Below are positions 7,805 to 61,393 of a DNA stretch of 64,000 nucleotides, one piece after another; position 1 is the stretch's first letter, and every line of letters begins with the position of its first letter. The position numbers and the translations under genes were made by a program. The DNA is taken from assembly GCF_009746125.1 (NCBI RefSeq), contig NZ_CP041352.1, forward strand, positions 3,208,436 through 3,272,435, in the 5' to 3' direction. Below the pieces are notes generated by a model. It ran no database searches. It was not told where the DNA came from and saw only the letters and a list, made by a program, of their open reading frames with translations. Origin of the DNA: Casimicrobium huifangae. GTDB taxonomy: Bacteria; Pseudomonadota; Gammaproteobacteria; Burkholderiales; Casimicrobiaceae.

Positions 7805-7926
7805 TATCAGCTTTTTTCTCAAATGGCGTTCATAAAGGGCGTGAAGCCATTTTTCTGTAGTTATCGACTTTAGGACGAATCGCGTATGAAGCCCATTGCC
7901 GACGCCATTTCATCAAAAAGCTGATA
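7805..7926. repeat. ERIC-like palindromic element, copy A
   Basis: A 122-bp imperfect palindrome. The outer arms are perfect over 12 bp: TATCAGCTTTTT at 7805-7816 and AAAAAGCTGATA at 7915-7926. The next arms are AAATGGCG (7821-7828) with CGCCATTT (7903-7910), then TTCATA (7829-7834) with TATGAA (7885-7890). The centre carries ATCGACTT. It is the cleanest of six related copies in this window and lies between the moaA-linked gene and the aldehyde dehydrogenase. Confidence 0.75.
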
Positions 7927-8023
7927 AACCACCAACAGGCAATTTCACGCACACCTTGCCGCACGCCATCCACGCTACACAAGCACCATCAGTTTCAATT
8001 TCCTCTAGCAGCCAAGCATCACT

Positions 8024-9460
8024 ATGACCTACTCCAACGTTCAGCTCCTGATCAACAACGAATGGCGCGCAGCCCGTGGCGGCGCGACCCTGCCGGTGCA
8101 CAACCCCGCCGACGGCAGCACGATTGGCACGGTTGCCAAGGCCAACACGGCCGACCTCGACGACGCGCTGGCCGCAGCGGCCAAGGGTTTTGAAGTGTGG
8201 AAAAACACGCCTGCGGTCGAACGCGCCAAGGTGATGCGCGCCGCTGCCGCGCTGCTGCGCGAGCGTACCGATGCCATCGCCACCGTGATGACGATGGAGC
8301 AGGGCAAACCGCTCGCCGAAGCCAAGATCGAGATTGGCATGTCCTGCGACATCATCGAATGGTTCGCCGAGGAGAGCCGCCGCGTCTACGGACGCATTGT
8401 TTCGCCGCGCTCGCTGGCCCAGCAGCAAATGGTGCTGAAGGAGCCGGTCGGCCCGGTCGCCGCGTTCACGCCGTGGAACTTCCCGATCAATCAGGTGGTG
8501 CGCAAGCTCTCCGCCGCGCTCGCCACGGGCTGCTCGATGATCGTCAAGGCGGCCGAAGAAACGCCCGCCTCGCCCGCCGAACTCATCCGTGCCTTCGTGG
8601 ACGCCGGTCTGCCCGCAGGCGTCGTCGGCCTCGTTTACGGTGACCCCGCCGAGATCAGCAACTACCTGATTCCGCACCCGGTCATCCGCAAGATCACGTT
8701 CACCGGCTCGACGCCGGTGGGCAAGATGCTCGCCTCGCTCGCGGGCAAGCACATGAAGCGCCTGACCATGGAACTCGGCGGTCACGCGCCGGTGATCGTC
8801 GCAGCAGACGCCAACATCGCGCATGCCGTGAAAGTGATCGCCGGCGCCAAGTTCCGCAACGCCGGGCAGGTCTGCATCTCTCCGACGCGCTTTCTCGTCG
8901 AAGAAGCAGCGCGCGACGAGTTCGTCGCGGGCCTGGTGAAATACTCGCAGGGACTGAAAGTCGGCTCCGGCCTCGAAGCCGGCATCCAGATGGGCCCGCT
9001 AGCCAACCCGCGCCGCGTCAGTGCGATGCAGGAAATCACCGAGGACGCCATCAAGCGCGGCGCCACTCTCGCCACCGGCGGGGAACGCATCGGCACCACC
9101 GGCAACTTTTTCAAACCAACGGTGCTGCTTGACCCGCCGCTCGACAGCTCGGTGTTCAACAACGAGCCGTTCGGCCCGATGGCCGCCGTACGCAGCGTGA
9201 AAAACCTCGACGAAGCCATCGCAGAGGCCAACCGCCTGCCGTTCGGCCTCTCGGCCTACGCCTTCACCAGCAGCATCAAGAATGCCCATCAGCTGAGCGC
9301 CCAAGTACAAACTGGCATGCTCTGGATCAACCAGCCCGCCGCGCCGTGGGCAGAGCTGCCGTTCGGCGGCATCAAGGATTCAGGCTACGGCAGCGAAGGC
9401 GGCCCCGAGGCGCTGGAGGCTTACCTCAATACCAAGACGGTGGCGATGACTAGCGTTTAA
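8024..9460 (+). CDS. NAD(P)-dependent aldehyde dehydrogenase, succinate-semialdehyde dehydrogenase-like
   Basis: 478 residues, normal for the ALDH superfamily. It has the oxyanion Asn region ([10 protein letters not shown]), the catalytic Glu in MELGGHAP and the catalytic Cys284 in GQVCISP. The segment [10 protein letters not shown]...IEWFAEE resembles GabD-type succinate-semialdehyde dehydrogenases. GabD usually has GQTCVCANR; the GQVCISPTR here means a related semialdehyde substrate is equally possible. No GABA aminotransferase is adjacent, so the pathway is unclear. The coding start is about 100 bp after copy A of the palindromic element. Confidence 0.85.
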
Positions 9461-9478
9461 TCAACGCAGCACGGCGAT

Positions 9479-15719: not shown

Positions 15720-15888
15720 GAGTGATGTGTGGGCAGAACGCCGGGCCGGATGCCGGAGCGCCCGGCGAGTGTAGAGGTTTCGTCGATGTCCCTGAGTCCG
15801 CTGCGGACAAAGGGACAAGGGTATTCGCTCGCGAAGTAGCGGCGAAAAAGTCGTGCCTGGCGCGCTTCGTCGGGTGAAGCCGGGCGAT

Positions 15889-16007
15889 CACCTTTTTAGC
15901 GAGAGTCCCATTTAATCTGGGCTCAGTGCGGATTTGAGCGTCAAGTCGACTTTAACCATTTTGCGGCCTGAGCCCACATCGAATGGTGCTTACGCCGAAA
16001 AGCTGAA
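15889..16007. repeat. ERIC-like palindromic element, copy B
   Basis: A 119-bp imperfect palindrome between cysE and the M20 hydrolase. The arms GGGCTCAG (15919-15926) and CTGAGCCC (15968-15975) flank a centre with AAGTCGACTT. The right end CGAAAAGCTGAA (15996-16007) stops 8 bp from the M20 gene's stop codon. Aligned with the other five copies it shares the outer CTTTT, the ATGGGCT-type inner arm and the centre. Confidence 0.72.
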
Positions 16008-16014
16008 TTGCCAG

Positions 16015-17190
16015 CTAGGCTGCGAGATACCGCTGCGTCAACGCCACCCACATCGCCGAGCCGACGCCAATGTTGTCGTCGTTGAAGTTGTAGCCAGGGT
16101 TGTGCACCATGCAGGCGCCGGCACTGTCGCCATCGCCGTTGCCGATGAAGAAATAGCAGCCGGGCAGCTTCTCCAGCATGAAGGCGAAATCTTCGCTGCC
16201 AGTCACCGCCGCCGCGTTCCACTCGACACGGCTGTCGCCCACCAGATCGCGCGCCACACCACAGGCAAATTCCGCTTCCGCCGCCGTGTTGACCAGCACC
16301 GGATAGCCGCGCTGGTAATTGATCTCGGCGCGCACGCCAAAGCTCTCTGCCTGCGCGGTGGCGATGGCACGGATGCGCGCCTCCAGCAGGTTACGCACGG
16401 CGGGGTCCAGTGCACGAACGCTCAGCTCCAGCGTCGCGGTCTGGGGGATGACGTTGTTGGCAACCCCGGCATGCAGCGCGCCCACCGTGACCACGGCGGT
16501 CTGCTGCGGGTCAACGTTGCGCGAAACAATGGTCTGCAGCGCCATCACCAGGCTGGCGGCGGCGACCAGCGGGTCCTGCGCCCGATGCGGCATGGCGCCG
16601 TGGCCACCATAGCCATGCAGGGTGATGGTTACGTTGTCGGCCGACGCCATCGTGGGACCGGGGCGCACCGCAAAGTGGCCCTGCGGCAAGCCCGGCATGT
16701 TGTGCATGGCGAAGATGGCGTCACAGGGAAACTGCTCGAACAGGCCCTCATCCATCATTCGTTTGGCGCCGCCCTTGCCCTCCTCGGCCGGCTGGAAGAT
16801 CAGGTTGAGGGTGCCAGAGAACCGCCCACTGGCCGCCAGATACTTCGCCGCCGCCAGCAGCATCGCGGTATGTCCGTCATGCCCGCACGCGTGCATCACG
16901 CCACGGCGCTTGCTCGCATAGCCGAAGTTGTTCGCTTCGATGATGGGCAGCGCGTCCATGTCGGCGCGAAGCCCGAGCCGCTTGCCGCCGTCACCGCGCA
17001 CCAGCTGCCCGACCACGCCAGTACCGCCGAGACCGCGATGCACGGTGTAGCCAAAACTGGTCAGTCGCTCGGCGACCAGGTCCGCCGTACGGAACTCCTC
17101 GAAAGCGAGCTCCGGTTCGCTGTGGATGTCGCGGCGAACGCTGATGAATTCGTCAGCTTGTGCGTACAGAGCATCAATCAATGCAGACAC
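16015..17190 (-). CDS. M20 family amidohydrolase (hippurate hydrolase-like)
   Basis: 391 residues, standard for M20D peptidases. Metal ligands lie in MHACGHDGHTAMLL, FQPAEEGKGGAKRMMDEG, and the late His/Glu around TGSEDFAFML. The dimerisation domain is in the middle (about 190-300). Such enzymes hydrolyse N-acyl amino acids such as hippurate or indole-acetyl-amino acids; the substrate is not fixed by sequence. It lies 46 bp downstream of the uncharacterised 17236-17940 gene, so one transcript is possible. Confidence 0.9.
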   Translation of the reverse strand: MSALIDALYAQADEFISVRRDIHSEPELAFEEFRTADLVAERLTSFGYTVHRGLGGTGVVGQLVRGDGGKRLGLRADMDALPIIEANNFGYASKRRGVMHACGHDGHTAMLLAAAKYLAASGRFSGTLNLIFQPAEEGKGGAKRMMDEGLFEQFPCDAIFAMHNMPGLPQGHFAVRPGPTMASADNVTITLHGYGGHGAMPHRAQDPLVAAASLVMALQTIVSRNVDPQQTAVVTVGALHAGVANNVIPQTATLELSVRALDPAVRNLLEARIRAIATAQAESFGVRAEINYQRGYPVLVNTAAEAEFACGVARDLVGDSRVEWNAAAVTGSEDFAFMLEKLPGCYFFIGNGDGDSAGACMVHNPGYNFNDDNIGVGSAMWVALTQRYLAA

Positions 17191-31237: not shown

Positions 31238-32062
31238 CTACACGGCGTCGAGCAGGGTTGATGCGATCTCTTTGCGGCAAATCACCAAGCCACCGTGCAG
31301 CACCACATCACGCTGGTTGAACACGATGGCCTCGCCGTGCAGGTCGCTCACATGCAGCCCGTGTGCGAGCGCGACGCCGACCGGTGCCGCGGCGTCCCAC
31401 TCGTTCATGCCGCCCTCGTGCACATAGGCCAGCGCCTCGCCTCGCACCACCGTGAGCGCCTTGGCGCCGGCGGAGCCGACCTGCCATAGCGTGGCGCCAA
31501 GCGCGTCCGCCACCGCCTGCGCACAGCGCGGCGGGCGCGAGCGGCTGATGACGACGCGGCGCGCGCTTGCTGCAACGGGCGGCGGCAATGGTGTCCCGGA
31601 AGTCACGGGCGCGGTGTCGAACACGTCATCGCGCGCCGGCTGCGAGACTGCCGCAGCAAGCACCCGGCCATCAGCCACCAGCGCCACATGCACCGCCCAG
31701 TCGTCACGGCCTTCGCGAAACTCGCGGGTGCCGTCGAGCGGGTCGATGATCCAGACGCGCTTTGCGTGCAACCGCTGCAGGTCGTCGGCAGATTCTTCAG
31801 AGAGTACAGCGTCGCAAGGACGTACCTGTGACAGTGCGGCGAGCAACAAGGCGTTGGCCTGCGCGTCACCTGCGTCACCCAGCGCCCGCGCGTCCATCGC
31901 GTTGGCGCCGCACGCACGCGCACGCAGGTCGAGCAGCAAGGCCCCAGCGCGTAGTGCCAGCTCGCGAGCCAGCGCAACATCATCGGTGGCGCTGAACAAG
32001 CCCAGAACGCTCGTACCAGACACGTCGGCTACCCGTGATTTGGTCATCAGCTCTGTCACCAA
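31238..32062 (-). CDS. cysQ: 3'(2'),5'-bisphosphate nucleotidase CysQ (inositol-phosphatase family)
   Basis: 274 residues. Metal motifs are SEESADD and WIIDPLDGTREFREG; a late GGMNEWDAAAPVGVALAHG completes the family signature. The TREF form is typical of CysQ, which recycles PAP from sulfate assimilation. A second start at 32044 (MTKSRVAD) is possible. A palindromic element lies directly upstream. Confidence 0.88.
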   Translation of the reverse strand: MVTELMTKSRVADVSGTSVLGLFSATDDVALARELALRAGALLLDLRARACGANAMDARALGDAGDAQANALLLAALSQVRPCDAVLSEESADDLQRLHAKRVWIIDPLDGTREFREGRDDWAVHVALVADGRVLAAAVSQPARDDVFDTAPVTSGTPLPPPVAASARRVVISRSRPPRCAQAVADALGATLWQVGSAGAKALTVVRGEALAYVHEGGMNEWDAAAPVGVALAHGLHVSDLHGEAIVFNQRDVVLHGGLVICRKEIASTLLDAV

Positions 32063-32070
32063 AACTCGTA

Positions 32071-32168
32071 TGGATGGGGCCTGTAGCCCATTTTCTCAAA
32101 AAGTCGACTTTTAACGATTATTGGATTGAAGCCCATTTCGAGTGCGGGTTTCAGTAAAAAGTCAATTC
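32071..32168. repeat. ERIC-like palindromic element, copy C
   Basis: An imperfect palindrome centred on AAAAGTCGACTTTT (about 32098-32112). The left arm includes GTAGCCCATTTTCTC and the right arm GAAGCCCATTTCGAG. The outer right end is AGTAAAAAGTCAATTC. The left end is shorter than in other copies, as if trimmed at the start of cysQ. It ends 16 bp from the LOG-family gene's stop codon. Confidence 0.7.
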
Positions 32169-39770: not shown

Positions 39771-39774
39771 TTAA

Positions 39775-42299: not shown

Positions 42300-42416
42300 G
42301 CGGGCAAACGGGTGGCGACAGAAAGCAGGCGTCAATGCTAGCGACCGGCTTTGCCGTCAGCGCGCAAAGTTTTCAGGCGAGGCTGCGAGCGCGGGAACAT
42401 CGCCGACTGGCCGGTC

Positions 42417-42533
42417 GGCTTTTCGATGAAAGCCTTATTTGAAAAGGGCTGATGACGTATTTTTCACGGAAGTCGACTATTGACAGAAATTAGTCCCAAG
42501 CCGCTTGCCGCCGTCGATTCAACTGAAAGTTGC
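42417..42533. repeat. ERIC-like palindromic element, copy D
   Basis: 117 bp between the MFS gene and the response regulator gene. The left end is GGCTTTTCGATGAAAGCC; the inner arm GAAAAGGGCTGATGACG; the centre GGAAGTCGACTATTGAC; the right end AACTGAAAGTTG. The second half is more diverged than in copy A. The gap 42300-42608 holds nothing else that I can recognise. Confidence 0.65.
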
Positions 42534-42608
42534 TTTCGCCAGCCGTACCAACAGACGCAAAAAAGCGCGACGAATCGCGCTGCTGTGTTGCCCAGTCGAT
42601 CGGTGAAA

Positions 42609-49114: not shown

Positions 49115-49576
49115 TCAATCAGCCGATATCGAAAAGCTGACTGCCCCGAATTCTGCCGGAAGCGGCTCCCAGCGCTCGCGCATGCGCCGCATTGCCTCGG
49201 CCGGCACATCGTGCACATTCGGCCATGTGCCGGTGCACTCCACCACGCAAAACGACCGGTTGGCAAGGCGCGCAGCCCCGATCACCGCTGCCATCTCCCA
49301 CAGGCGCACGTGGGTGTTGGCGACCACCACGCGCCGGCCCGCCTGCAGTGCCGCCAGCGCATCACGCGCCACGATGGCATGGGCGTCGGCGACCCGGGCC
49401 GGGTCGAAACGGTAAACGCCGTCCACCACGAAATGGTGGTCCGCTTCGAGATGAATAAAACCGTGCTCCAGCGCCAGCCGTTGCGCCAGCGTGCTCTTGC
49501 CGGTGCCGGGCAGGCCACGCAGCAGCACGCAGTGGAATTCGGCTAGCGCCGCAAGATCGTCGGGAGACTTGAGCAT
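49115..49576 (-). CDS. P-loop ATP-binding kinase-like protein
   Basis: 153 residues. Walker A is LLRGLPGTGKSTLAQRLA near residue 18. A conserved FIHLEADHHFVVDGVYRFDP follows, then RVVVANTHVRLWEM. It resembles small AAA_33/polynucleotide-kinase-like proteins found next to phage or tRNA-repair genes, but the substrate is not known. It is upstream of dnaJ on the same strand by about 120 bp. Confidence 0.78.
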   Translation of the reverse strand: MLKSPDDLAALAEFHCVLLRGLPGTGKSTLAQRLALEHGFIHLEADHHFVVDGVYRFDPARVADAHAIVARDALAALQAGRRVVVANTHVRLWEMAAVIGAARLANRSFCVVECTGTWPNVHDVPAEAMRRMRERWEPLPAEFGAVSFSISAD

Positions 49577-49607
49577 CGGCGCCGTTCTATCACCGAATCG
49601 TGGACAG

Positions 49608-51671
49608 CTAGAAGTTCATCGCCAGCGTCAACCGGAATGAACGCGACTCGACCGGATGAAAGTGAATCGCATCCACGCCGGCAACAGCCTCGCCCGGCAA
49701 CCGCGACGTGTAGTAATAGTCAATCGCAGACGCTCTGCGGTTGGCCAGATTGAAGCCTTCGAGCTCGACACGCATCTTGGGCGACACCCGATAGCCAAGG
49801 CGCGCGTTGAATACGATCGTGCTGCTGGAGCGGACACTGTTGTCTTCCAGCAGCGGTCTTGGCCCGAAGTATCGCAACTGCGCTGCACCGAACCACGGAC
49901 CGAGGTTGTCCACCGCGATGGCCAGCGACGCCACGCCCTCGACGGCACCCGGGATGCGATTGCCGGTAGGATCAGCGTCGCGGAATCGCGCGCGGGCGAA
50001 CGCGACGTCGGCATCCACGGTCAGCCAGTTGCCGAGCTTGTAGTAATTCGCCAACTCAAAGCCGACTCGTCGACTGGGCCGGCTCGCCTCGGTGGTACCG
50101 GCGTCGCCGACAAACAGCAATTCGGACGCGAGATCGAGCCGGTAGATCGCCAGCGACGTTTGCAGACCGGGCAGCCAGTTGCCACGCACGCCCAGCTCGG
50201 CCCCGCGCGAACGCACCAGCGGCGTCACGCGGTCCGCCGCGTCGCCGGTTTTTGGGTCGACGCGGATCGTCGTACCGCGCGCATCGTTGCTGTGAAAGCC
50301 GCCGCCTGCATTGACGTAGAACTCGGTACTCGCCCACGGCCCGGCGACCAGCGAGAGCTTCGGATTGACGATGGCTTCGCGAGCGGTGCCGCTATTGACA
50401 GCGTTATCGCTGTTCACCTTGAAGCGGTAGGCATCCGCCCGCAACCCGGCGACCGAGCGCAGCCACGGCGCCCATCTCGTGGCGTTCTCGCCATACAGGG
50501 CGAGGCTGCTCTCGACGATGTGATCCTGTCGCGTCACGCCAATGGTCTGCCGAGCTCTGGTGCTGAGCAGGCCGTTGAAGATGTTGTCGCTCTGCGCCTG
50601 CATGCCAACCGTGTTCTCTGATTCGCTCCCCAGCCCTACCTGCTGCCAGGTATGGCGCAGGTTGAGCCCCGCAGTGCGGCGGCGGTCCGGTTGCGCGAAC
50701 TGGTCGCCATCGACCGGGTTGTCGAGAACGTAGGTGAAATTGGAGAACAGCGCGAGCTGGTTGTCGATCAGGTAGGCATTGGCCTCCGTACTCGACTGCA
50801 CGTCGCTGCGCCGCCATGCACCCGACAGGCTGTAGCGATGCGCGGCGCCGCCGTCGGTTGGGTCAATCGCGTCGAATCGGCTGCGGATCAGCCCGGCGTC
50901 GATGGCGCGTTGCGTGATCTGGTCGCTCGAATTCCAGCTTGCCTTGTACGCCATCGCGGTGACGTTGAAGCCATTGCCCGCGTCGCCGCGACCATAGCGC
51001 AGCACGCCGTTGAGCTTGCGGAAACGATCCGGATGCACGAACGGCCCGTCGTTGTTGAGCCATTCAATGGCATAAAGCAGTCGGCCATCGGCGAAGGCCG
51101 GCGAGTCGGCAATCAGCGCGCGGCGATAGCCGTTTTGCCCGACCCCGAGCGAGGCAATGCCTTGCGGAAGGGCATCGGCGTATTTGAGATGCACCGCACC
51201 GGCCGACGAGAAATCGCCCTCGCTCGCAAAGTACGGCCCCTTGCGATATTCAAGACGGCTGGCCAGCTCGGGAATGACGAAATTCACATCCGTCCAGCCC
51301 TGACCGTGCCCATGCGATCGCTGGTTCACCAGCATGCCGTCCACCGTCGTACGCAGGTCGGTGCCGTGATCGAGATTGAAGCCACGCAGGTAGAACTGGT
51401 TGGCCTTGCCCTCGCCGCTGTGCTGGCTGACGATCAGGCCCGGCACCGATTCCAGCAACTCGCCGGGCCGATAGACCGTGCGCGCTTCAAGCTGCTTTTG
51501 CGTGACGGTGCCCACGCTTGCAGCATCAGCCACACCGATGCTGGTCACATTGCCGGTAACGACAACCTTCTCAAGTGCCTGCTCGCCGCCAGCAAAAACT
51601 TCCGGCGCGAAAGCGATGCAGACGACGAGAAATGTGGTTCGATGTAGTGGAGAGCAGTGAGCGAATATCAT
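49608..51671 (-). CDS. TonB-dependent outer membrane receptor
   Basis: 687 residues. Signal at 1-26 (RTTFLVVCIAFAPEVFAGG), TonB-box-like EKVVVTGN, then plug domain (about 45-150; PGELLESVPGLIVSQHSGEGK, GFNLDHGTDLRTTVDGM) and a 22-strand barrel ending in Phe (SFRLTLAMNF). It takes up a metal chelate or other large nutrient. The cargo is unclear, and no siderophore gene is near. Confidence 0.92.
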   Translation of the reverse strand: MIFAHCSPLHRTTFLVVCIAFAPEVFAGGEQALEKVVVTGNVTSIGVADAASVGTVTQKQLEARTVYRPGELLESVPGLIVSQHSGEGKANQFYLRGFNLDHGTDLRTTVDGMLVNQRSHGHGQGWTDVNFVIPELASRLEYRKGPYFASEGDFSSAGAVHLKYADALPQGIASLGVGQNGYRRALIADSPAFADGRLLYAIEWLNNDGPFVHPDRFRKLNGVLRYGRGDAGNGFNVTAMAYKASWNSSDQITQRAIDAGLIRSRFDAIDPTDGGAAHRYSLSGAWRRSDVQSSTEANAYLIDNQLALFSNFTYVLDNPVDGDQFAQPDRRRTAGLNLRHTWQQVGLGSESENTVGMQAQSDNIFNGLLSTRARQTIGVTRQDHIVESSLALYGENATRWAPWLRSVAGLRADAYRFKVNSDNAVNSGTAREAIVNPKLSLVAGPWASTEFYVNAGGGFHSNDARGTTIRVDPKTGDAADRVTPLVRSRGAELGVRGNWLPGLQTSLAIYRLDLASELLFVGDAGTTEASRPSRRVGFELANYYKLGNWLTVDADVAFARARFRDADPTGNRIPGAVEGVASLAIAVDNLGPWFGAAQLRYFGPRPLLEDNSVRSSSTIVFNARLGYRVSPKMRVELEGFNLANRRASAIDYYYTSRLPGEAVAGVDAIHFHPVESRSFRLTLAMNF

Positions 51672-51756
51672 GCGGATCAGCGAAGCAAGCGCCGCGCCAC
51701 AGGGCGAGAGCACCGCCCATTTGACCGCACACGGAACGTGAGGCGCCAGGAGCCCG

Positions 51757-52689
51757 CTAGAACCCGACCTGCAGCGAAAGGTAGGCGCCAGTCTGTCGCC
51801 GCCCGCTGGTCAGCGCGCCGACGATCTGGCCGAGATCGACGTAGGCGGCGGTAACCGACACGTTCTTGCTCGGGAAGTACGCCACGAACACGTCCCACGC
51901 GGTGCCTTCGCTCAGGTTCAACGCCGCGTTGGATAGATTGCCGCGCTTGGTGCGCACCTCGATGCCGCCCACCAGATCGCGACGGAACAGATAGGCCAGC
52001 GAGCCTTCAAACTCGGGCCGGTAGCGCTTGCCATCCGGGCCTTCAAAGCCGACGAGGCCGAACTGGTTGCCCTTGGTGAAACGTACGGTGCCGTTCAGCA
52101 GCAGGCTCTTGTCGAGGAAGAGCTTGCTGGCAGCGACGTAGAAATCGGTACCGCGATTGCGGATGTTCGACCCGAGTGCGCCGTTGAGGAATGGGATCAC
52201 GGTGTCGTCCTTGTTGTCCTTCACCTGAACACCCACGGCGATCTGCGGCAGCAGCCGGTCCTGGTCGTAGATGGCGTCGCCGATCACGCGGACTTTGGCG
52301 CCAAAAACGTCCTGCTTGAGTTTGTAGTCGCGCAGCGCGGGGCTGATCGCCGTCAGCACAGCCTTGGTGTTGAACTCCTGCCGCGCGTAGGATAGCTCGA
52401 CACGATCGTAGAGCCCGACCGCGACGCCGCCGGTGGTGAGCGCGTAGTCGCGCGTTTTGACGCCCGTGAGATGGGCATTGGCGCCGATCTGGTTCTCGGT
52501 GCCGTAACCGGTGATCAGCGCCCACGTCGCCAGCCCGCCACCGCCCGAGCCTTCCACCGTTGACACGCCGCCGGTGGCGCGCAACTTGCCGCTGATGTCC
52601 TGCGCCGAGACGCCACCGGCCGCGAGGAGAGTGCCAAGCAGTGCCACGCCAACGCCAAGGGCCGTAAATTTCCAGGTTTTCTGCTGCAT
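51757..52689 (-). CDS. DUF3034 family outer-membrane-type protein
   Basis: 310 residues with a Sec signal ending near VSAQD. The rest is strand-rich with alternating residues (DRVELSYARQEFNTKAVL; GLVGFEGPDGKRYRPEFEG), matching DUF3034, whose members are thought to be outer-membrane beta-barrels of unknown role. The end is LSLQVGF, with Phe last as in barrels. It is 85 bp upstream of the TonB receptor on the same strand, so they may be co-transcribed. Confidence 0.82.
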   Translation of the reverse strand: MQQKTWKFTALGVGVALLGTLLAAGGVSAQDISGKLRATGGVSTVEGSGGGGLATWALITGYGTENQIGANAHLTGVKTRDYALTTGGVAVGLYDRVELSYARQEFNTKAVLTAISPALRDYKLKQDVFGAKVRVIGDAIYDQDRLLPQIAVGVQVKDNKDDTVIPFLNGALGSNIRNRGTDFYVAASKLFLDKSLLLNGTVRFTKGNQFGLVGFEGPDGKRYRPEFEGSLAYLFRRDLVGGIEVRTKRGNLSNAALNLSEGTAWDVFVAYFPSKNVSVTAAYVDLGQIVGALTSGRRQTGAYLSLQVGF

Positions 52690-52899
52690 GGTTGCCTTGA
52701 ATTTGTATTTACTGGTACCAAAACGCCCGTCTGACGGCGCGACCAAGCCTATACGCACAATTTTTCGCGGCGGTTTTCGGTCGCTGCCAGCCCCTGTCAA
52801 CCCCGTTTCGGTCAATCACTCGTTTCATTAGGCGTGACCGCCGGCGCAAAATCTCCCATAGCGCGGCGCGGCACGGCATTACCACCCATAAGGACCTCC

Positions 52900-53646
52900 A
52901 TGAATCTGAACCTCCTCAAACGCTCTTCCGGCCAGGCCACCGTGCTGGCGTTCACGTGTGCAGCACTGCTGGCAGCCGCGGCCAACGGTCAGAACCTGGC
53001 TACCGCAGCGCCGTCGCGCGACGCGCTGACGCTGGACGCCACCGTGACGAGCGAGGTCATCCCGGATCTCGCCGTGATCACGCTTGCCGCCGAGGCGCAG
53101 GGCGCCGAAGCAGCGCCGATCACACGCGAAGTGCAGCAGGCGATCAACGCCGCCCTCGCGCAGGCGAAGGCGGCCGCAGGCGTGGAAGCGCGCACGGGAG
53201 CGTTCTCCACCAGCCAGCGCTGGAACAGCAAGGGCGGGCGCGACGGCTGGACGGTGCGCGCCGAGCTGATCCTCAAAAGCCGGGATTTCGCGGCGCTCGG
53301 TGCCCTCGCTGGCAAACTCGCCCAGCAAAAGTTGATGATCGTCGGCTCGGCCCTGGAGATCTCGCGCGAGTTGCGCGAACGTGAGGAGCAGGCGCTGGTC
53401 GAGCGTGGCATCGCGGCCTTCCGCACCAAGGCGCAAACCGCCAGCCACGCTTTCGGCTTCGCGCGCTACACGTTGCGTGACGTGAATCTCGGCAGCATCG
53501 GCGGTGATGTGCGCCCCATCCAGCCAAAGGTGTACGCCATGCGCGCTGCCACGGCGCCGATGGCTGACGCCGAGCCGGTGGCGATTGAAGGCGGCAAGGT
53601 CAGCCTCACGCTGACCGTGAGCGGTACGGTGCTGATGAGTCAATAG
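52900..53646 (+). CDS. SIMPL/DUF541 domain periplasmic protein
   Basis: 248 residues. Signal at 1-30 (LAFTCAALLAAAANGQN), then the SIMPL domain (LDATVTSEVIPDLAVITLAAEAQG at the start, VSLTLTVSGTVLMSQ at the end). Such proteins are found in the periplasm and have been linked to stress, but the activity is unknown. Its TAG stop at 53644-53646 overlaps the start of the palindromic element by two bases. It diverges from the DUF3034 gene. Confidence 0.85.
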   Translation: MNLNLLKRSSGQATVLAFTCAALLAAAANGQNLATAAPSRDALTLDATVTSEVIPDLAVITLAAEAQGAEAAPITREVQQAINAALAQAKAAAGVEARTGAFSTSQRWNSKGGRDGWTVRAELILKSRDFAALGALAGKLAQQKLMIVGSALEISRELREREEQALVERGIAAFRTKAQTASHAFGFARYTLRDVNLGSIGGDVRPIQPKVYAMRAATAPMADAEPVAIEGGKVSLTLTVSGTVLMSQ

Positions 53647-53761
53647 CTTTTTGTCGAAATTCCTGTTCTCAATGGGCTATCAGCAGCAAAGTGTCAATTA
53701 TCGACTTTGCGTATTTTTCGGCTTCCAGCCCAGTCTTATCTTCATTCTTGACGAGAAGCCG
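53645..53761. repeat. ERIC-like palindromic element, copy E
   Basis: 117 bp, starting AGCTTTTTGTCGAAATTCC in the SIMPL stop codon. It has the inner arm TCAATGGGCTATCAGCAGC, the centre TTATCGACTTTGCG, and the right arm CCAGCCCAGTC ending GAGAAGCC. The left half aligns closely with copy A read in reverse. Confidence 0.7.
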
Positions 53762-53802
53762 TTGGCAAACGCGGGACGATTTCTGCTTGGCAGGGACTAT
53801 TT

Positions 53803-53819
53803 CGGAACCGGAGGTTCCG
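53803..53819. promoter_or_regulatory. Candidate operator palindrome upstream of soeA
   Basis: CGGAACC, GGA, GGTTCCG: a perfect 7-bp inverted repeat with a 3-nt centre, 100 bp before the likely soeA start. A TATGTA sequence about 28 bp later could be a -10. Purely a sequence observation. Confidence 0.3.
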
Positions 53820-53918
53820 CTGTTTATCTTTTTCGCCCAACTCATATGTATGACTTAGGCACAATAGGGGAACCGTCGGCAGCCGCCGTACCGATGCCTC
53901 GATCTGGGCCTGCCCGCT

Positions 53919-56900
53919 TTGCCTCCTGCTTCATCATCCGCTCCGCCTTCACTCAAACCTGACATCGCGGCTAGCAGCGTTCCGTTGACGCCCGCTGGCG
54001 AACGCCCGATCCGTTTCGAGGATCGCAGCCAGCAGCAGGTGCATCACACCACCTGCTACATGTGCGCCTGCCGCTGCGGCATCAAGGTGACGACGGAAGA
54101 AAGACCCGGGGAACCCGGCCAGCCGTGTAAGACGCACGTACGCTTCATCCAGGGCAACCCGAATCACGTGGTGAATCAGGGCGTGCTCTGCGCCAAGGGC
54201 AGCGCGGGCATCATGAAGCAGTATTCGAAGGCGAAGCTGCAACACCCGATGATTCGCCGTCCCGGCAGCGAGCGGGGCGACGGCGTCTACGACCCGATTT
54301 CTTGGGACGACGCGCTTGATCTGCTGAGCAAACGCCTCGCGCATATCCGCGCGACCGATCCCAAGAAGCTCGCGTTCTTCACGGGCCGCGACCAGATGCA
54401 GGCGCTGACGGGCCTCTGGGCGCAACAGTTCGGCACGCCGAACTGGGCCGCGCACGGCGGCTTCTGCTCGGTCAACATGGCCGCTGCCGGCCTCTATTCG
54501 ATCGGCTATTCGTTCTGGGAATTCGGCGCGCCCGACTGGGACCGCGCGAAGTATTTCGTGCTCTGGGGCGTGGCCGAGGATCATTCGTCAAACCCGATCA
54601 AGATTGGCCTCGACAAGCTGAAGACGCGCGGCGCCAAGTTTGTGAGCGTCAATCCGGTACGCACCGGCTACAGCGCCATCGCCGACGAATGGGTGCCGAT
54701 CCGGCCCGGCACTGACGGCCTGCTCGCGCTCGCCATCGTGCATGAGCTGCTTGCGAACGAGTGGATCGATCACGACTACCTCGTGCGCTACACCAACGCG
54801 CCATGGCTGGTGATTGACGCGCCCGGCACCGCGCAGGATGGCCTGTTTCTGCGCGATGACGAAGGCAAGCCGCTGGTCTGGGATCAGCAGTCGCAGGCGA
54901 CGAAGCGGATGGAGAAAGGCGTGGCGCCGGCGCTGCACTGGAGTGGTTCTGTTCCCCTCTCCCTTGAGGGGAGAGGGGCCAGGGGAGAGGGTGACGGTGC
55001 CTCAACGACTGACGACGATGCGACCAGCCCCCTCTCCCCCAACCCCTCCCCCACGAGGGGGGAGGGGAGCCAAAGAGTCCGTACCGTCTTCTCCCTCATC
55101 CTCAACCGCTACAGTAGCACCGACTACGCGGCCGACACCGTTGCCGCCCAATGCGGGGTTCCCGCCGAACAGATCCGCCGCCTCGCGCGCGAGATGGCGC
55201 ATGTGGCGTTCAACGAAACCATCGAGCTGCCCTGCCGGTGGACCGATATCTACGGCAATGTGCATGACAAGGTGGTCGGCCGGCCGGTGGCGTTCTACGC
55301 GATGCGTGGCATCAGCGCGCATGCCAACGGCTTTCAGACCTGCCGCGCGCTGCACCTGATCCAGATGCTGCTCGGCGCACTCGACAGCCCCGGCAACTTC
55401 CGCTCGAAGGCGCCGTTCCCGCGGCCGATCCCGCCCGCGCAACTGCCCGAGAATGACCCCGGCATCATCAATGCGCCCGACACCGCGCTGTCGAAAACGC
55501 CGCTCGGCTTTCCGACTCGACCGGAGGAACTGGCGCTCGATGCCAGTGGCAATCCGCTGCGGCTCGACAAGGCGTATTCATGGGAAGCACCGCTCGCTTC
55601 GCACGGCATGATGCACGCGGTGATCAAGAACGCCGTCGAGGGCGACCCGTACCCCATCGACACGCTGATCCTGTTCATGGCCAACATGGCGTGGAACAGT
55701 GCGATGAATACGGCGGGCACGCAAGAGATGCTGCGCGCCAGGGATGAGGCAGGCAATCACAAGATTCCCTTCCTGGTCGTCGCTGACGCGTTTGACAGCG
55801 AGACGGTGCGCTTCGCTGATCTGGTGCTGCCTGACACGACCTACCTTGAGCGCTACGACGCGATCAGTTTTCTCGACCGCCCGATCAGCGAGCCTGACGC
55901 GGCAGCGGATTCGATCCGCCACCCGGTGCTGCCGCTCGACCGCGATGTGCGGCCGTGGCAGGACGTGCTGGTCGAGCTGGCGACGAGGCTCAAGTTCCCG
56001 GCGTTCGTCAAAGCCGACGGGGCGCGCAAATTCGCTGGCTACACCGACTTCATCGTCAACTACGAACGTGCGCCGGGCATCGGCTTCCTCGCGGGCTTCC
56101 GTGGCAAGGATGGCGAAAAGTCTTTTCGCGGCGAACCGAATCCGCAGCAGTGGCAGGCCTACATCGGTGCGCAGAGCTTCTTCGCGCATCACTGGCCCGA
56201 CAACCAGCGCTGGATGCGCGGCGTCAATCGCGACTATCTGCAGGCCGCCGCGGATGCCGCGTTCATTCCGAAGGCGGAGCCCATCATCGCGCAGCTTTAT
56301 TCCGAGCCGCTGCAGAAATTTCGTCTTGCCGGTCAGGGGCTGTACCCAGGTCGGCAGCCCACCCGGGAAGTCGACAAGCAGAGGCTCGCGCAGTATTTCG
56401 ATCCGTTGCCGGTGTGGTACGAAACGTCCGCCCTGCCGGCGCATGAAACGGGCGCTGCGCCCGACTACCCGCTGCACGCCATCACCCAGCGCCCGATGAT
56501 GATGTATCACTCGTGGGACAGCCAGAACGCGTGGTTGCGCCAGATCGTGGCGCAGAACTATCTCTACGTGAACACGGCGACCGCCGCGTCATTGGGCCTT
56601 GCCGACCTCGACTGGGTGTGGGTGGAATCCCCGCACGGCAGGATCCGCTGCCAGATGAAGACGATGGAGGGCGTCGAGGCGAACACCGTGTGGACCTGGA
56701 ACGCCATCGGCAAGATGAGCGAGGCCTGGGGGCTGGAGCGCGACGCGTCGGAGGCGACTGTGGGCTTCCTGCTCAACCATCTGATCGCGGAAAGCATCCG
56801 CGCTGAATCCGGCGAGCGGCTTTCCAACAGCGACCCGATCACCGGACAGGCCGCGTGGTACGACCTGCGCGTGCGTATCCGCAAGGCGGAGGAATCAGGT

Positions 56901-56930
56901 GTGTGGCCGAAGCTGGAGTTTGGACGATGA
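53919..56930 (+). CDS. soeA: Molybdopterin sulfite dehydrogenase subunit (SoeA-like)
   Basis: 1003 residues with the [4Fe-4S] motif TCYMCACRCGIKV...VLCAKGSAG, bis-MGD domains, and a possible Mo ligand in HGGFCSVNMAA. No Tat signal is seen, so it should be cytoplasmic, as in SoeABC, which oxidises sulfite to sulfate with quinone. The gene order A-B-C with a DmsC-like anchor supports this; other members of the family cannot be excluded. The start is a TTG at 53919; no better ATG exists ahead of the first cysteine. Residues about 343-385 come from an inserted repeat. Confidence 0.83.
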   Translation: MPPASSSAPPSLKPDIAASSVPLTPAGERPIRFEDRSQQQVHHTTCYMCACRCGIKVTTEERPGEPGQPCKTHVRFIQGNPNHVVNQGVLCAKGSAGIMKQYSKAKLQHPMIRRPGSERGDGVYDPISWDDALDLLSKRLAHIRATDPKKLAFFTGRDQMQALTGLWAQQFGTPNWAAHGGFCSVNMAAAGLYSIGYSFWEFGAPDWDRAKYFVLWGVAEDHSSNPIKIGLDKLKTRGAKFVSVNPVRTGYSAIADEWVPIRPGTDGLLALAIVHELLANEWIDHDYLVRYTNAPWLVIDAPGTAQDGLFLRDDEGKPLVWDQQSQATKRMEKGVAPALHWSGSVPLSLEGRGARGEGDGASTTDDDATSPLSPNPSPTRGEGSQRVRTVFSLILNRYSSTDYAADTVAAQCGVPAEQIRRLAREMAHVAFNETIELPCRWTDIYGNVHDKVVGRPVAFYAMRGISAHANGFQTCRALHLIQMLLGALDSPGNFRSKAPFPRPIPPAQLPENDPGIINAPDTALSKTPLGFPTRPEELALDASGNPLRLDKAYSWEAPLASHGMMHAVIKNAVEGDPYPIDTLILFMANMAWNSAMNTAGTQEMLRARDEAGNHKIPFLVVADAFDSETVRFADLVLPDTTYLERYDAISFLDRPISEPDAAADSIRHPVLPLDRDVRPWQDVLVELATRLKFPAFVKADGARKFAGYTDFIVNYERAPGIGFLAGFRGKDGEKSFRGEPNPQQWQAYIGAQSFFAHHWPDNQRWMRGVNRDYLQAAADAAFIPKAEPIIAQLYSEPLQKFRLAGQGLYPGRQPTREVDKQRLAQYFDPLPVWYETSALPAHETGAAPDYPLHAITQRPMMMYHSWDSQNAWLRQIVAQNYLYVNTATAASLGLADLDWVWVESPHGRIRCQMKTMEGVEANTVWTWNAIGKMSEAWGLERDASEATVGFLLNHLIAESIRAESGERLSNSDPITGQAAWYDLRVRIRKAEESGVWPKLEFGR
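54945..55075. repeat. Inverted repeat pair inserted in frame inside soeA
   Basis: Two inverted units, each of the form CCCCTCTCCC...GGGGAGAGGGG (54953-54991 and 55028-55070). They encode PLSLEGRGARGEGDG and SPLSPNPSPTRGEG, low-complexity peptide unlike the enzyme around it. The frame is kept. Such GGGGAG-rich units are common between genes in related bacteria. Confidence 0.75.
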
Positions 56931-56942
56931 TGTTCAATCGTA

Positions 56943-56995
56943 GGGCGGGCATTGCCCGCCTTGTATTCACGAGACGGGCCATTTCCGCCCTACCT
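56943..56995. repeat. BIME between soeA and soeB
   Basis: GTAGGGCGGGCATTGCCCGCC at the left and, inverted, CGGGCCATTTCCGCCCTAC at the right. Foot GTAG as in the other REPs. It lies between two genes of one operon and might influence the soeA/soeB expression ratio. Confidence 0.75.
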
Positions 56996-57006
56996 GTGTG
57001 GTTCGC

Positions 57007-57756
57007 ATGCGCCTAGGTCTCGCCATTGATCTTGACACCTGCGTCGGCTGCCATGCTTGCGCGGTCGCCTGCAAGGAATGGAACGGCGAATCGCTGATGG
57101 GTGGCGCACCGGACTATGACGCCTGGGGCAAGTCCCCCAGCGGCACCTGGTACAACCGCATCCGCCATTTCGAGATTGAAGGCGACCCGGCGTACTCGCC
57201 GCATCGCTGTGGATCGCAGGCGGACGCGAATGGCCTGCAGCCGCTTTCGAAGACGGTCAACGTGCCAATGAGCTGCATGCATTGCGAGGACGCGCACTGC
57301 GTGACCGTGTGCCCGACCGGTGCCAGTTACAAGCGCGCGGAAGACGGCATCGTACTGGTCGATCCCGAGCGCTGCATGGGTTGCAACTACTGCTCCTGGG
57401 CCTGCCCCTATGGCGCCCGCGAACTGGACCAGGACAAGGGCGTCATGAAGAAGTGCACGCTCTGCGTCGATCGCATCTATGACACGCAATTGCCTGAAGC
57501 CGAGCGCCAGCCCGCCTGCGTGCTGGCCTGCCCGACCCACGCGCGACACTTCGGCGACTACGACGACTCGACCTCGAAAGTGTCGCAACTCGCTGCTGCA
57601 CGTGGCCGCCAGGAGATGTTGCCTGACCTTGGCTATCGCCCGACCAACGCTTATCTATCGCCACGCAAGCCAGTCGAGGTGACGCCCACGCTGCCGCTGC
57701 GGCAAGGCCTCAGCGACAAGGCCAAAGCCTTTGTGAACCGGTTGATCAACCTGTGA
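57007..57756 (+). CDS. soeB: Iron-sulfur subunit SoeB-like
   Basis: 249 residues, DmsB/NrfC-type ferredoxin subunit. Four cluster motifs are visible: DTCVGCHACAVACKEWNG, SCMHCEDAHCVTVCPTGA, RCMGCNYCSWACPYGAR and KCTLCVDRI...CVLACPTHA. It takes electrons from the molybdenum subunit to the membrane anchor. Its stop overlaps the soeC start (ATG-type overlap by 4 bp). Confidence 0.9.
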   Translation: MRLGLAIDLDTCVGCHACAVACKEWNGESLMGGAPDYDAWGKSPSGTWYNRIRHFEIEGDPAYSPHRCGSQADANGLQPLSKTVNVPMSCMHCEDAHCVTVCPTGASYKRAEDGIVLVDPERCMGCNYCSWACPYGARELDQDKGVMKKCTLCVDRIYDTQLPEAERQPACVLACPTHARHFGDYDDSTSKVSQLAAARGRQEMLPDLGYRPTNAYLSPRKPVEVTPTLPLRQGLSDKAKAFVNRLINL

Positions 57757-58667
57757 AACCCGCCCTCTCCGTCATCTTCTTCACGGTCTCCTCGGGTGCC
57801 GGGTTGGGCCTGCTGGTGTGGCTGCTGATTGCCTCGCTGATGGCCGATCACATCCGCATGGACGCGTTGACGTTCTACAAAGGCGCCGCAATTGCAGCAC
57901 TGTTGATCACTGCGGGCCTGATCTCGTCAACACTGCATCTCGCCAACCGCAAGAATGCCGTGTATTCGCTCACACGCTGGCGCACATCGTGGCTGTCGCG
58001 CGAGGGCTTGCTCGCCATCGCGTTGTACCCGCTGGCGGCGCTGCATCTGTACGCGCTGGACAACGGCCTGCCGCAGGTGACACCGGTCACGCTGTGGCTG
58101 CTGGTCGCACTGGCGATTGCCATCATGTTCTGCACCGGCATGATCTACGGTTGCCTGAAGACCATTCCGCGCTGGAACACCTGGATGACGCCAGCGAAAT
58201 ACGTATTGTTCGGGCTGATGAGCGGCGCGGTGCTGCTACCGGCCGTGCTGTCGCTCCGCCCCGCTGAAGTTGGGCCGGTTGGCAAACCGATGATGGCCAT
58301 TTTGCTGCTGGCGATTGGCATGGTGTTCTATGTGGCCTATCTGCTGAAGCATCCGCGCAAGACACACCTCATCAATGATGCGCTGGGCTTTCGTGAAGGC
58401 AACGTGCGGCTGCTCGACGCCGGGCATTCGCATGGCACCTTCCTGACCAATGAGTTCGGCTTTGTGCTGGCACGCGAACAGGCTCGTCTGCTGCGCTGGG
58501 TTGCGATCATCGGTGGCTTCGTGCTGCCGCTGTTGCTTTGTTATTTCACCAAATGGTTCTGGGCGGCATCGGTGATCTGCCTGATTGGCCTGCTGGTGGA
58601 ACGCTGGCTGTTCTTCGCCGAAGCGGAGCATGTGGTGCGGCTCTATCACGGACAGCAACGTGTGTAG
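57753..58667 (+). CDS. soeC: Membrane anchor subunit SoeC-like (DmsC family)
   Basis: 304 residues, about eight membrane helices (for example GLGLLVWLLIASLMADHI, LWLLVALAIAIMFCTGMIYG, VAIIGGFVLPLLLCYF). It fits the NrfD/DmsC-type quinone-reacting anchor. The ending FFAEAEHVVRLYHGQ is common to this group. With SoeA and SoeB it would hand electrons from sulfite to the quinone pool. Confidence 0.87.
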   Translation: MKPALSVIFFTVSSGAGLGLLVWLLIASLMADHIRMDALTFYKGAAIAALLITAGLISSTLHLANRKNAVYSLTRWRTSWLSREGLLAIALYPLAALHLYALDNGLPQVTPVTLWLLVALAIAIMFCTGMIYGCLKTIPRWNTWMTPAKYVLFGLMSGAVLLPAVLSLRPAEVGPVGKPMMAILLLAIGMVFYVAYLLKHPRKTHLINDALGFREGNVRLLDAGHSHGTFLTNEFGFVLAREQARLLRWVAIIGGFVLPLLLCYFTKWFWAASVICLIGLLVERWLFFAEAEHVVRLYHGQQRV

Positions 58668-58682
58668 CGCCACGTCAGCGCA

Positions 58683-59963
58683 GTGACGAGATTTCTGCCC
58701 TTTCTCGCGTGGCTGCCCCTGCTGCGCAACCGCGCCACGCTGCGTACCGACGTGCTGGCGGGACTCACTGGCGCCATCGTCGTGCTGCCGCAGGGGGTGG
58801 CCTTCGCCACGCTGGCCGGCATGCCACCGGCGTATGGCCTTTATTCGGCGATGGTTCCCTGCGTGATCGCTGCGCTGTTCGGTTCGTCGCGCGTGATGGT
58901 GACCGGCCCGGCGAACGCCATTTCGTTAACGGTTCTCGCGATCATGGCGCCGCTGGCGCAGCCTGAATCGCCGCGCTATGTGGAGCTGGTGATCACGCTG
59001 GCGTTCATGGTGGGTTGCTGGCAGTTGCTGTTGGCGCTGGTGAAGGCCGGGCGCCTGATCGACTACGTCTCGCACACGGTGATCGTAGGCTTCACGGCAG
59101 GTGCGGCGGTACTGATCGTGAATTCGCAGATCCGCAACTTCTTCGGCGTCGACATCCCGCGCGGCACTTCGGTGGCACAAACCGTCATTGAGTTCGCCGC
59201 CCATCTGCCCACCGTTCAGCCGGTGGCGATCGCAACCGGTTGCCTGACGCTGCTTGCTGCCGTCCTCTGGCAGCCGCTCAATCGCATCGTCCCGGCCATG
59301 CTGGTGGCTGTCGTCGCTGGCAGCACGGTGGCGGCATTCGCCCGCTGGGTTGAGCCCAATCTCGTGCTGCGGACGGTCGATGCATTGCCCAGCGCCATCC
59401 CGCCGCTGTCGTCGCCTGACCTTAGCCCCGATACGCTGCGTCAGCTGCTGGTGCCGTCGATCGCGATGACGCTGCTGGCGCTGGCCGAAGCGGTGTCCAT
59501 CGCGCAAGCACTGGCGAAGCGGCGACACGAGAAACTGGACGGCAATCAGGAGTTTCTCGGGCAGGGTGTTGCCAATATCGTGGGTTCGTTCTTTTCGTCC
59601 TACCCGGCCAGCGGCTCGTTCAATCGCTCCGGCGTCAACATGGCAGCGGGTGCCGTCACGCCGTTTTCGGCGATCTGCGCGGCGACGTTTCTGGTCGCCA
59701 TCCTTTTCTTCGTGGCGCCGCTGGCCCGCTATCTGCCGCTGGCCGCGGTCGCCGCGATCCTGTTTCTGGTGGCGTGGAATCTGGTGGATCGCCGGGAGTT
59801 TCGCTACCTGCTCGCCGACAAGTTCGAGCGCATCACGCTGCTTGCCACGTTCATCGCTACGCTCGCAATACCGCTGGAATGGGCCATCCTGCTCGGCGTT
59901 GCCGTCGGCCATGTGGTCGGCCGCATTCGCCGTAGCCGCGCTACAGCTGGCCACGCTGAATAA
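58683..59963 (+). CDS. SulP-family anion transporter lacking a STAS domain
   Basis: 426 residues, beginning at a GTG 15 bp after soeC. SulP core: GLTGAIVVLPQGVAFATLAGMPPAYGLYSAMVPC, LVGSS-like segment VIAALFGSSRVMVTGPANAISL, and SVAQALAKR-type SIAQALAKRRHEK. Usual SulP proteins have about 550 residues with a cytoplasmic STAS domain; here the frame stops soon after the last helix. With Soe genes upstream it may move sulfate made from sulfite. Confidence 0.88.
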   Translation: MTRFLPFLAWLPLLRNRATLRTDVLAGLTGAIVVLPQGVAFATLAGMPPAYGLYSAMVPCVIAALFGSSRVMVTGPANAISLTVLAIMAPLAQPESPRYVELVITLAFMVGCWQLLLALVKAGRLIDYVSHTVIVGFTAGAAVLIVNSQIRNFFGVDIPRGTSVAQTVIEFAAHLPTVQPVAIATGCLTLLAAVLWQPLNRIVPAMLVAVVAGSTVAAFARWVEPNLVLRTVDALPSAIPPLSSPDLSPDTLRQLLVPSIAMTLLALAEAVSIAQALAKRRHEKLDGNQEFLGQGVANIVGSFFSSYPASGSFNRSGVNMAAGAVTPFSAICAATFLVAILFFVAPLARYLPLAAVAAILFLVAWNLVDRREFRYLLADKFERITLLATFIATLAIPLEWAILLGVAVGHVVGRIRRSRATAGHAE

Positions 59964-60007
59964 AATAGCGGGCTACATCCCACTACAGCCCCTGCAAGGA
60001 CAGCACG

Positions 60008-61072
60008 ATGGCCCTCGTTTCCATGCGCGAACTGCTCGACCACGCCGCCGAGAACGGCTACGGCATTCCGGCGTTCAACGTCAACAATCTCGAGCAGGTG
60101 CAGGCCGTGATGGCGGCCGCCGACGAAGTGGGCGCGCCGGTGATCCTGCAGGCCAGCGCGGGCGCTCGCAAGTACGCTGGCGAGAGCTTCATCAAGCACC
60201 TGATCGCCGCCGCGACCGAGGCCTACCCGCACATTCCTCTGGTCATGCATCAGGACCACGGCACCAGCCCGAAGATCTGCCAGGGCGCGATTGATCTCGG
60301 CTTCGGCTCGGTGATGATGGACGGCTCACTGAAGGAAGACGGCAAGACGCCGGCGAACTTTGATTACAACGTTGACGTCACCAAGCAGGTCGTCGCCATG
60401 GCGCACAAAGTTGGCGTCACGGTGGAAGGCGAGCTCGGCTGCCTCGGGTCGCTCGAAACCGGCGAGGCTGGCGAGGAAGACGGCGTTGGCGCGGTTGGCA
60501 AACTGGGGCACGACCAGCTGCTGACGGACCCGGAAGAAGCCGCGCAATTCGTCAAGGCCACACAGCTTGACGCGCTGGCGATCGCCATCGGCACCAGCCA
60601 CGGCGCCTACAAGTTCACCCGCCCGCCGACGGGCGATGTGCTCGCGATCAGCCGCGTCAAGGAAATCCACAAGCGCATTCCGAACACCCACTTGGTCATG
60701 CACGGCTCGTCGAGCGTGCCGCAAGACTTGCTGGCGCTGATCAACCAGTTCGGCGGCAAGATGAAAGAGACCTACGGCGTGCCGGTCGCCGAGATTCAGG
60801 AAGCCATCAAGCACGGCGTCCGCAAGATCAACATCGACACCGACATCCGCCTTGCCATGACCGCTGCCGTGCGCAAGTTCCAGGCCGAAAACCCGGACAA
60901 GTTCGACATGCGCGAATGGATGAAGCCCGCGCGCGAAGCGGCGAAAGCGATCTGCAAACAGCGCTACCTCGAATTCGGCTGCCAAGGTCAGGGCGGCAAG
61001 GTCAAGGGCGCGACGCTCGTGGACATGGCGGGCAAATACGCGCGCGGCGAGCTGGCACAAATCGTCCAGTAG
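60008..61072 (+). CDS. fba: Class II fructose-bisphosphate aldolase
   Basis: 354 residues, Zn-dependent. Motifs: [17 protein letters not shown] at the start, [13 protein letters not shown] with the zinc-binding His and catalytic Asp, [34 protein letters not shown], and GTSHGAYKF. It splits fructose-1,6-bisphosphate in glycolysis and forms it in gluconeogenesis or the Calvin cycle. A GGACAG ribosome site precedes the ATG. The palindromic element follows 92 bp after its stop. Confidence 0.96.
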
Positions 61073-61393
61073 TACCTGCGCCGCGCTGTATCGCGTTGGT
61101 GCAGCTGCGGCGTCGGCTGTACGAGGCTGGCTGGTGCAGCGATCGTCTACCGGTGACCGATTGTCTTTTCGCTGAAACGCCCATTTGAATGGGCCTGGCA
61201 GCTGATTTTCGCGAAAGTCGACTTGACGACTTTTGGCCTGCCAGCCCTTATCGATCCGTGCATGCAGCCAAAAGATATAACCCGATTGGGCGAAAAAGTC
61301 CCATTTCGGACAATTCTTGCGGCGCCGCGACTCGCCCCGTAAACTCGATTCATCGTTTGCGTTGGGAATCGTTGTCGGGATCCACCGCGTCTG
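61073..61393. other. Gene-free stretch 3' of fba
   Basis: 321 bp without a credible gene; the frames here are low-grade shadows. It holds palindromic element copy F (61164-61275). The rest (61276-61393) should contain the promoter of the GGDEF/EAL gene, but I see no reliable -35/-10 pair. Confidence 0.7.
61164..61275. repeat. ERIC-like palindromic element, copy F
   Basis: 112 bp. Left half TCTTTTCGCTGAAACGCC, then TGAATGGGCCTGGCAG; the centre GAAAGTCGACTTGACG; the right half GGCCTGCCAGCCCTTATCG ending AGCCAAAAGA. The two halves align well on inversion (GGGCCTGGCAG with CTGCCAGCCC). Confidence 0.72.

Follow-up and report, generated by a model that had tools for sequence, protein, structure and literature searches.

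Two-fold symmetric intergenic sites of about 125 bp in Casimicrobium huifangae and related species as candidate docking sites for a nucleoprotein

Six intergenic palindromes in a 64,000-nucleotide stretch of the Casimicrobium huifangae genome (hereafter the window; bases 3208436-3272435 of the single 4,465,898-base contig that makes up this genome, G000) were found to belong to a family of sites of about 125 bp, maintained between genes in an estimated 400 copies. The sites are two-fold symmetric, are built of blocks at nearly fixed distances and are spelled in dialects that differ among species of the genus. Each of them is likely a double-stranded DNA recognition element under selection. The best single reading of the family, to which we give about an even chance, is that the sites dock a co-evolving and probably chromosome-organising nucleoprotein, whose protein component, wrapping of DNA and function we infer. 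A search of the literature revealed no description of such an element. Intergenic palindromes that abound in bacterial genomes are commonly regarded as mobile debris or as hairpins; both of these readings were tested in this study, and neither was supported.

A preliminary description of the window had recognized the six copies as a repeated intergenic palindromic family. All of them were confirmed, and they can be aligned without gaps when centred on the dyad. The earlier description of AAGTCGACTT-like or ATCGACTT centres was borne out, and copy A indeed pairs perfectly over its outer 12 bp. The left edge given for copy C lay about 26 bp inside the element. The sequence had not been recognized as one of the familiar repeats, and the whole window gave no Rfam match at the curated score (a search of four loci at E values up to 1 returned 12 matches, all below the threshold). 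A model scan of the genome and of its relatives, which had been proposed as a check, detected far more than six copies, as well as matches in congeners. The copies are listed below, each taken as the dyad +/- 61 bp, with the score obtained with a position weight matrix (PWM).

Copy A, 7805..7926, dyad 7865/7866, PWM score 85; between genes 7479-7748 (+) and 8024-9460 (+, aldehyde dehydrogenase).
Copy B, 15887..16008, dyad 15947/15948, score 79; the 3' end of gene 16015-17181 (-) is about 8 bp away.
Copy C, 32045..32166, dyad 32105/32106, score 92; shares about 17 bp with gene 31238-32062 (-) at the called start of the latter, which was taken from a simple script, so that the true start may lie further in.
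Copy D, 42414..42535, dyad 42474/42475, score 80.
Copy E, 53642..53763, dyad 53702/53703, score 80; overlaps the stop codon of gene 52900-53646 (SIMPL family protein).
Copy F, 61159..61280, dyad 61219/61220, score 63.

Copy D also has a terminator-like hairpin at, or close to, each of its ends (42402-42434 and 42564-42581, on opposite strands).

The size of the family was examined in several ways. The pattern AAAAAGTCGACTTT, with at most one mismatch, gave 58 strand matches in this genome and none when written backward, which excludes chance; many places were matched on both strands, and one coding-like seed match (L021) was excluded from the alignment. Of 925 first-look candidates, 150 were scored with a sequence-only model built from 27 copies (R1), and every one of these rows had E <= 5e-15, again with many places found on both strands. 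Copies were counted in the window together with 20 evenly spaced 20-kb stretches (464 kb), using a symmetric 130-bp PWM trained iteratively on up to 76 copies, a training set that includes its own matches. This yielded 42 matches (6 in the window and 36 in the stretches) with scores of 22-98, against a maximum of 1.8 in reversed sequence, and the first matrix, derived from 27 copies, had already produced 41 matches in the same sample. The 36 matches in 400 kb extrapolate to about 400 copies in the genome. A separate contiguous region of 464 kb, which shares the window and two stretches with the former sample, contained 40 matches scoring at least 14, a threshold adopted because the reversed maximum was 13.0. 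The mean spacing in this region, 11.4 kb, bears out the earlier estimate of about one copy per 11 kb.

The symmetry of the site is centred on TC|GA, and the consensus reads outward from the dyad roughly as GACTTT, A/T at 12-15, AGCCC at 25-29, A/T at 30-33 and 36-38, G/C at 39-42, TTT at 44-46 and AAAAG at 52-56. A/T tracts occur on each side near 5, 14, 24, 31-37, 45, 53 and 60 bp, and each arm is itself sub-palindromic (GCC...GGC), with a centre about 34 bp from the dyad. The consensus is palindromic right to its ends, and information reaches about 61 bp on each side. Among 148 half-sites, the best offset of the core was 0 in 98% and that of the other blocks in 49-85%, while the blocks lay within 1 bp of their expected place in 91-99%.

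None of the dyads was located inside a called gene, either in the window with the stretches (0/42) or in the contiguous 464 kb (0/40). In the former sample (gaps of at least 120 bp; 41 copies classified and one at a stretch edge), sites occupied 11 of 25 convergent, 22 of 97 codirectional and 8 of 44 divergent gaps; in the contiguous region (gaps of at least 110 bp) the corresponding values were 7/19, 27/99 and 6/51. The element edge lay a median of 36 bp from 3' ends, compared with 148 bp from 5' ends (p = 8e-5). The observation that every copy lies 3' of a gene therefore holds for the six copies for which it was made, and in general is a tendency only, since divergent gaps hold 8 of the 41 and 6 of the 40 copies.

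The distribution of the sites along the contiguous 464 kb was compared with a null model in which gaps were chosen at random among the 169 eligible ones, weighted by type, in 10,000 draws. The coefficient of variation of the spacing was 0.43 versus 0.89 +/- 0.12 under the null, and none of the 10,000 draws was as even; the smallest spacing was 3,160 bp versus a null median of 785 bp, a value likewise reached in no draw. Counts in the 20 separate stretches were underdispersed too (lower-tail chi-square probability of 0.018). The presence of some 400 roughly evenly placed intergenic sites suggests a role at the level of the chromosome.

The family appears to be confined to the genus in the genomes searched. 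R1 matched 13 of the 16 other members of the genus and none of 23 non-members. Among 64 genomes of the family it matched 14, all within the genus, and none of the 47 outside; among 399 genomes sampled from the order, for each of which few candidates were scored, 4 matched, again all in the genus. A pooled PWM applied to 75 loci of other genera gave nothing above the reversed maximum of 22.9 apart from two AT-rich matches in L239 (24.7 and 23.0), and the top scores in 379 kb from the same family (five genomes, four genera) were similar to those of reversed sequence (the largest, in G020, 24.3 versus 22.7). All of the searches outside the genus were seeded from known sites. As for the congeners without an R1 match, G002 has a dialect of its own, G009 contains one place scoring 47.6 (10.3 in reversed sequence) in 28 kb, and no sites were found in the small congener G016. 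Another small congener, G008 (L065, L079, L322-L338), carries 12 places detected by R1 in 2.5 Mb, in its own dialect. None of the 11 places that were examined is a copy of another (best pair 0.65), and ten proteins encoded beside eight of the places have no common theme. Four of these 11 dyads fall inside an open frame in a crude listing of open reading frames, so that not all of them may be intergenic. So small a set may be an early stage or a remnant of the system.

Re-training of the PWM in four species revealed 22 sites in G010 (205 kb), 19 in G013 (220 kb), 47 in G002 (258 kb) and 47 in G006 (200 kb). In eight train/test splits of these species, the held-out scores of at least 20 were all from real sequence (9-20 per split) and none from reversed sequence, and training on reversed sequence produced no matches in any of the four. 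In a leave-one-out assignment, 218 of 241 copies were attributed to their own species, and 15 of the 23 errors were between G002 and G006; the assignment is favoured by the picking of copies with the matrix of their own species, and part of the skeleton common to the species comes from the seed, as training started from the G000 matrix. In the G010 dialect (L113, L155 and others), a TTTTCGAAAA-like core replaces AAGTCGACTT, and the distances between blocks are kept.

Sites often occupy orthologous places in different species, no pair among 15 genomes of the genus being listed above about 82% identity in the region of the window. When both flanking genes were found, the orthologous gap was occupied in 5 of 8 congeners for copy D, 5 of 6 for copy E and 1 of 1 for copy F. 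In G011, G012, G007, G005 and G001, for which the other flank was not found, an element is located upstream of the molybdopterin oxidoreductase gene adjacent to copy E, 218-306 bp from its start, a distance similar to that of copy E. Copy E is missing from G015, where an element lies beyond the neighbouring gene. These shared gaps, together with the case of G015, indicate that individual sites turn over and the set persists.

The copies show no sign of recent descent from one another. Pair identity at low-information positions, compared with column shuffles, gave no signal of shared ancestry in any of the five species (real/shuffled: G000 0.3385/0.3365, G010 0.3175/0.3098, G013 0.3484/0.3475, G002 0.3143/0.3127, G006 0.3106/0.3122), and a single G010 pair, with an identity of 0.625, exceeded the highest of 100 shuffles (0.594). 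When all columns of G000 were considered, the mean identity was 0.490 versus 0.485 shuffled and the standard deviation 0.059 versus 0.037, an excess which may reflect copies that differ in overall strength. Recent transposition is thus not supported.

This bears directly on the possibility that the sites are non-autonomous mobile elements (MITEs or REPINs) spread by a transposase such as the REP-associated tyrosine transposase (RAYT), which we consider improbable. The palindromic consensus, the intergenic location and the inverted-repeat ends are those expected of a MITE, and Y1 transposase matches were obtained in 15 of 17 congeners, being absent from G008 and G016, which have few or no sites. 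Site D is missing in three of eight congeners, from shorter orthologous gaps of 92, 166 and 219 bp, in genomes that are at most about 82% identical in any pair. Against such spread stand the lack of the common descent expected of MITE copies in all five species and the even spacing, whereas REPIN doublets are random in extragenic space according to the cited part of the source (PMC3116915). The Y1 transposases, moreover, are several and divergent rather than single-copy or uniformly close. G015 has elements and no match to the tested Y1 protein, its single family match carrying an internal stop, and a scan beside a single Y1 gene (G006, L183), covering one side of it, revealed no element within about 4.9 kb. 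The mobile mechanism proposed in the preliminary description is accordingly not supported as a current process, given also that orthologous gaps are occupied; the origin of the sites may be an ancient mobile one. RAYT was also tried as the reading protein and is not favoured, being multi-copy and divergent outside G008 and G016, with G015 lacking a close match to the one tested. No carriage by phages or plasmids was detected, in that two patterns were absent from viral contigs and one G005 copy had no plasmid match.

The known repeats that these sites most resemble differ from them in the same respects. ERIC, Correia and similar repeats are palindromic intergenic sequences of about 100-130 bp, often located 3' of genes. 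The sites resemble ERIC and Correia in length, palindromy, intergenic place and frequent location 3' of genes (a likeness by description and not by comparison of consensus sequences), but have no common ancestry, are evenly spaced, are spelled in a species-specific manner and share only the constrained positions. Like REPINs and REP/BIME sequences, they contain an inverted pair of sub-palindromes, number hundreds of intergenic copies and occur in a genus with Y1 transposases. Unlike REPINs, for which the cited part of the source describes a random distribution (PMC3116915), they lack the clear covariation of a hairpin doublet, show no ancestry and are evenly placed.

The possibility that the palindrome acts as a hairpin was addressed by comparing the pairing of arms within a copy with that of arms taken from different copies. 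Watson-Crick pairs numbered 30.0 within copies versus 28.9 +/- 0.8 between them (p = 0.09; 27 copies), and identity across the dyad was 0.475 versus 0.466 (p = 0.14; 76 copies). The values for individual species were p = 0.16 (G000), 0.51 (G010), 0.81 (G013) and 0.27 (G002), with G006 as a weak exception (p = 0.036). The secondary dyad near 34 bp had the top self-complementarity in four of the five species and the third in G000, and little covariation, clearest in G013 (0.440 versus 0.413). Since self pairing is not clearly better than cross pairing, a selected hairpin, as had been suggested for the six copies, is not supported in the five species. Symmetry at the level of the family without clear covariation within copies is what would be expected of a symmetric protein reader.

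The same test weighs on the view that the sites are bidirectional intrinsic terminators, or other RNA hairpins at 3' ends, which is very improbable. Such a function would agree with the bias toward 3' ends, with the terminator-like arm GCCCATTTGAATGGGC of copy F, after which the consensus has T, and with the predicted folds of the six copies on the given strand (-27 to -56 kcal/mol). Self pairing is nevertheless about equal to cross pairing, both for the whole dyad and for the arm dyad near 34 bp, and no selected hairpin followed by a T run, as in an intrinsic terminator, was found. Terminator-like sites in the part of the window from 42001 to 62000 numbered 21 versus 15.6 +/- 3.6 in shuffled sequence, with none at copies E and F, and the copies in divergent gaps mentioned above are also contrary to a role in termination.

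DNA gyrase was the first candidate for a protein reader, because its motif in E. coli is symmetric and about 130 bp long; in the cited part of the source it is described as 130 bp, symmetric and with phased G+C (PMC6379681). There is a small chance that the sites are strong gyrase or topoisomerase IV sites which gather the enzyme at the ends of transcription units. The symmetric region of about 130 bp, the phased A/T and the bias toward 3' ends would all fit. The pooled A/T periodogram of whole sites from the five species, however, has its peak at 9.5 bp, with about one third of that power at the 10.75 bp of the gyrase motif. The arms alone do not decide the matter: their peaks were at 9.5 (G000), 8.15 (G010), 9.5 (G013), 11.0 (G002) and 10.9 bp (G006), and in G010, G002 and G006 the power at 10.75 bp was near the peak. 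The positions of the site are also strongly sequence-specific rather than a degenerate motif. Despite the dialects, the C-terminal part of GyrA is nearly identical among the aligned stretches listed for the congeners read in frame, a comparison that leaves out G011 and G012 (wrong reading frame) and G013 (no match). The dialects are thus not tracked by GyrA where it is readable, and gyrase was rejected as their reader.

The sites could mark the species' own DNA for transformation and accumulate through biased uptake, which is unlikely, yet comes first among the rival explanations, ahead of, in this order, an old mobile element, sites for gyrase, and terminators. Such a signal would yield dialects, evenness and an in-place origin, and other uptake sequences are evenly spaced, as are the sites studied here. 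Dialects of uptake sequences have been described in the Neisseriaceae, with thousands of genome-wide copies, in the cited part of the source (PMC3630211), and the dialects and the absence of copy ancestry resemble that case. The sites differ from those short and far more numerous sequences in their length of about 125 bp and their number of about 400, and their information content of about 82 bits is excessive for a short receptor motif.

We return to docking sites for a nucleoprotein. A symmetric protein assembly with several DNA-binding units would read each site, and the bound DNA would probably be bent or wrapped. Maintained between genes, nearer to 3' ends and about 11 kb apart, the sites may anchor or insulate supercoiled domains, or organise the nucleoid. 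The specificity of the reading protein would shift over time and the sites would follow by point mutation in place, giving rise to the dialects. matS and parS are dispersed, protein-read DNA sites that organise chromosomes; the sites described here are likewise dispersed and would have a protein reader, but they are far longer, contain several dyads each and are evenly spaced.

Several observations weigh against docking of this kind. The reading protein was not found among the candidates examined (GyrA, HU/IHF and Y1 transposases), and HU/IHF family proteins are present in all 17 congeners, including one without sites, so that they do not explain the sites. With about 12 sites in G008 and none in G016, members of the genus can do without the system. 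The total relative entropy of about 82 bits is far above what is needed to locate 400 places in the genome. The A/T period varies among species (the whole-site peak in G010 is at 8.2 bp), as does density, from 19 sites in 220 kb (G013) to 47 in 200 kb (G006), and some arm centres other than that near 34 bp were above control (z of 3-5, with up to 60 centres tried per species). The spacing test among eligible gaps covers one contiguous stretch of one genome, and the positions of genes throughout are those called with a simple script.

Even spacing, near-fixed geometry, dialects and orthologous placement nonetheless point to selection on chromosomal position. A bolder form of the docking hypothesis, which we put forward tentatively and regard as rather doubtful, is that the sites constitute a chromosome-wide positional lattice, with one multi-dyad site per approximately 11 kb bound by a rapidly evolving nucleoprotein which would wrap or loop the DNA and so fix the limits of domains between transcription units. 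If true, such a lattice would correspond, in a bacterial genus, to insulator sites, with hundreds of sites co-evolving in dialects. Should the reading protein be found, the genus would offer a natural system for studying the effect of evenly spaced boundaries on supercoiling and gene order, and for asking how sites in their hundreds keep pace with a DNA-binding specificity that changes.

Two further features of the window were observed. The segment 45120-46297, with a called gene at 45278-46240, is repeated with 100% identity at genome positions 3408610-3409787 and with 95% identity at 892363-893536, and is probably an insertion sequence. An inverted repeat at 39551-40919, with 97-nt arms that are 84% complementary and 923 nt apart, plus further outer arms, is located in a 1.6-kb stretch devoid of called genes.

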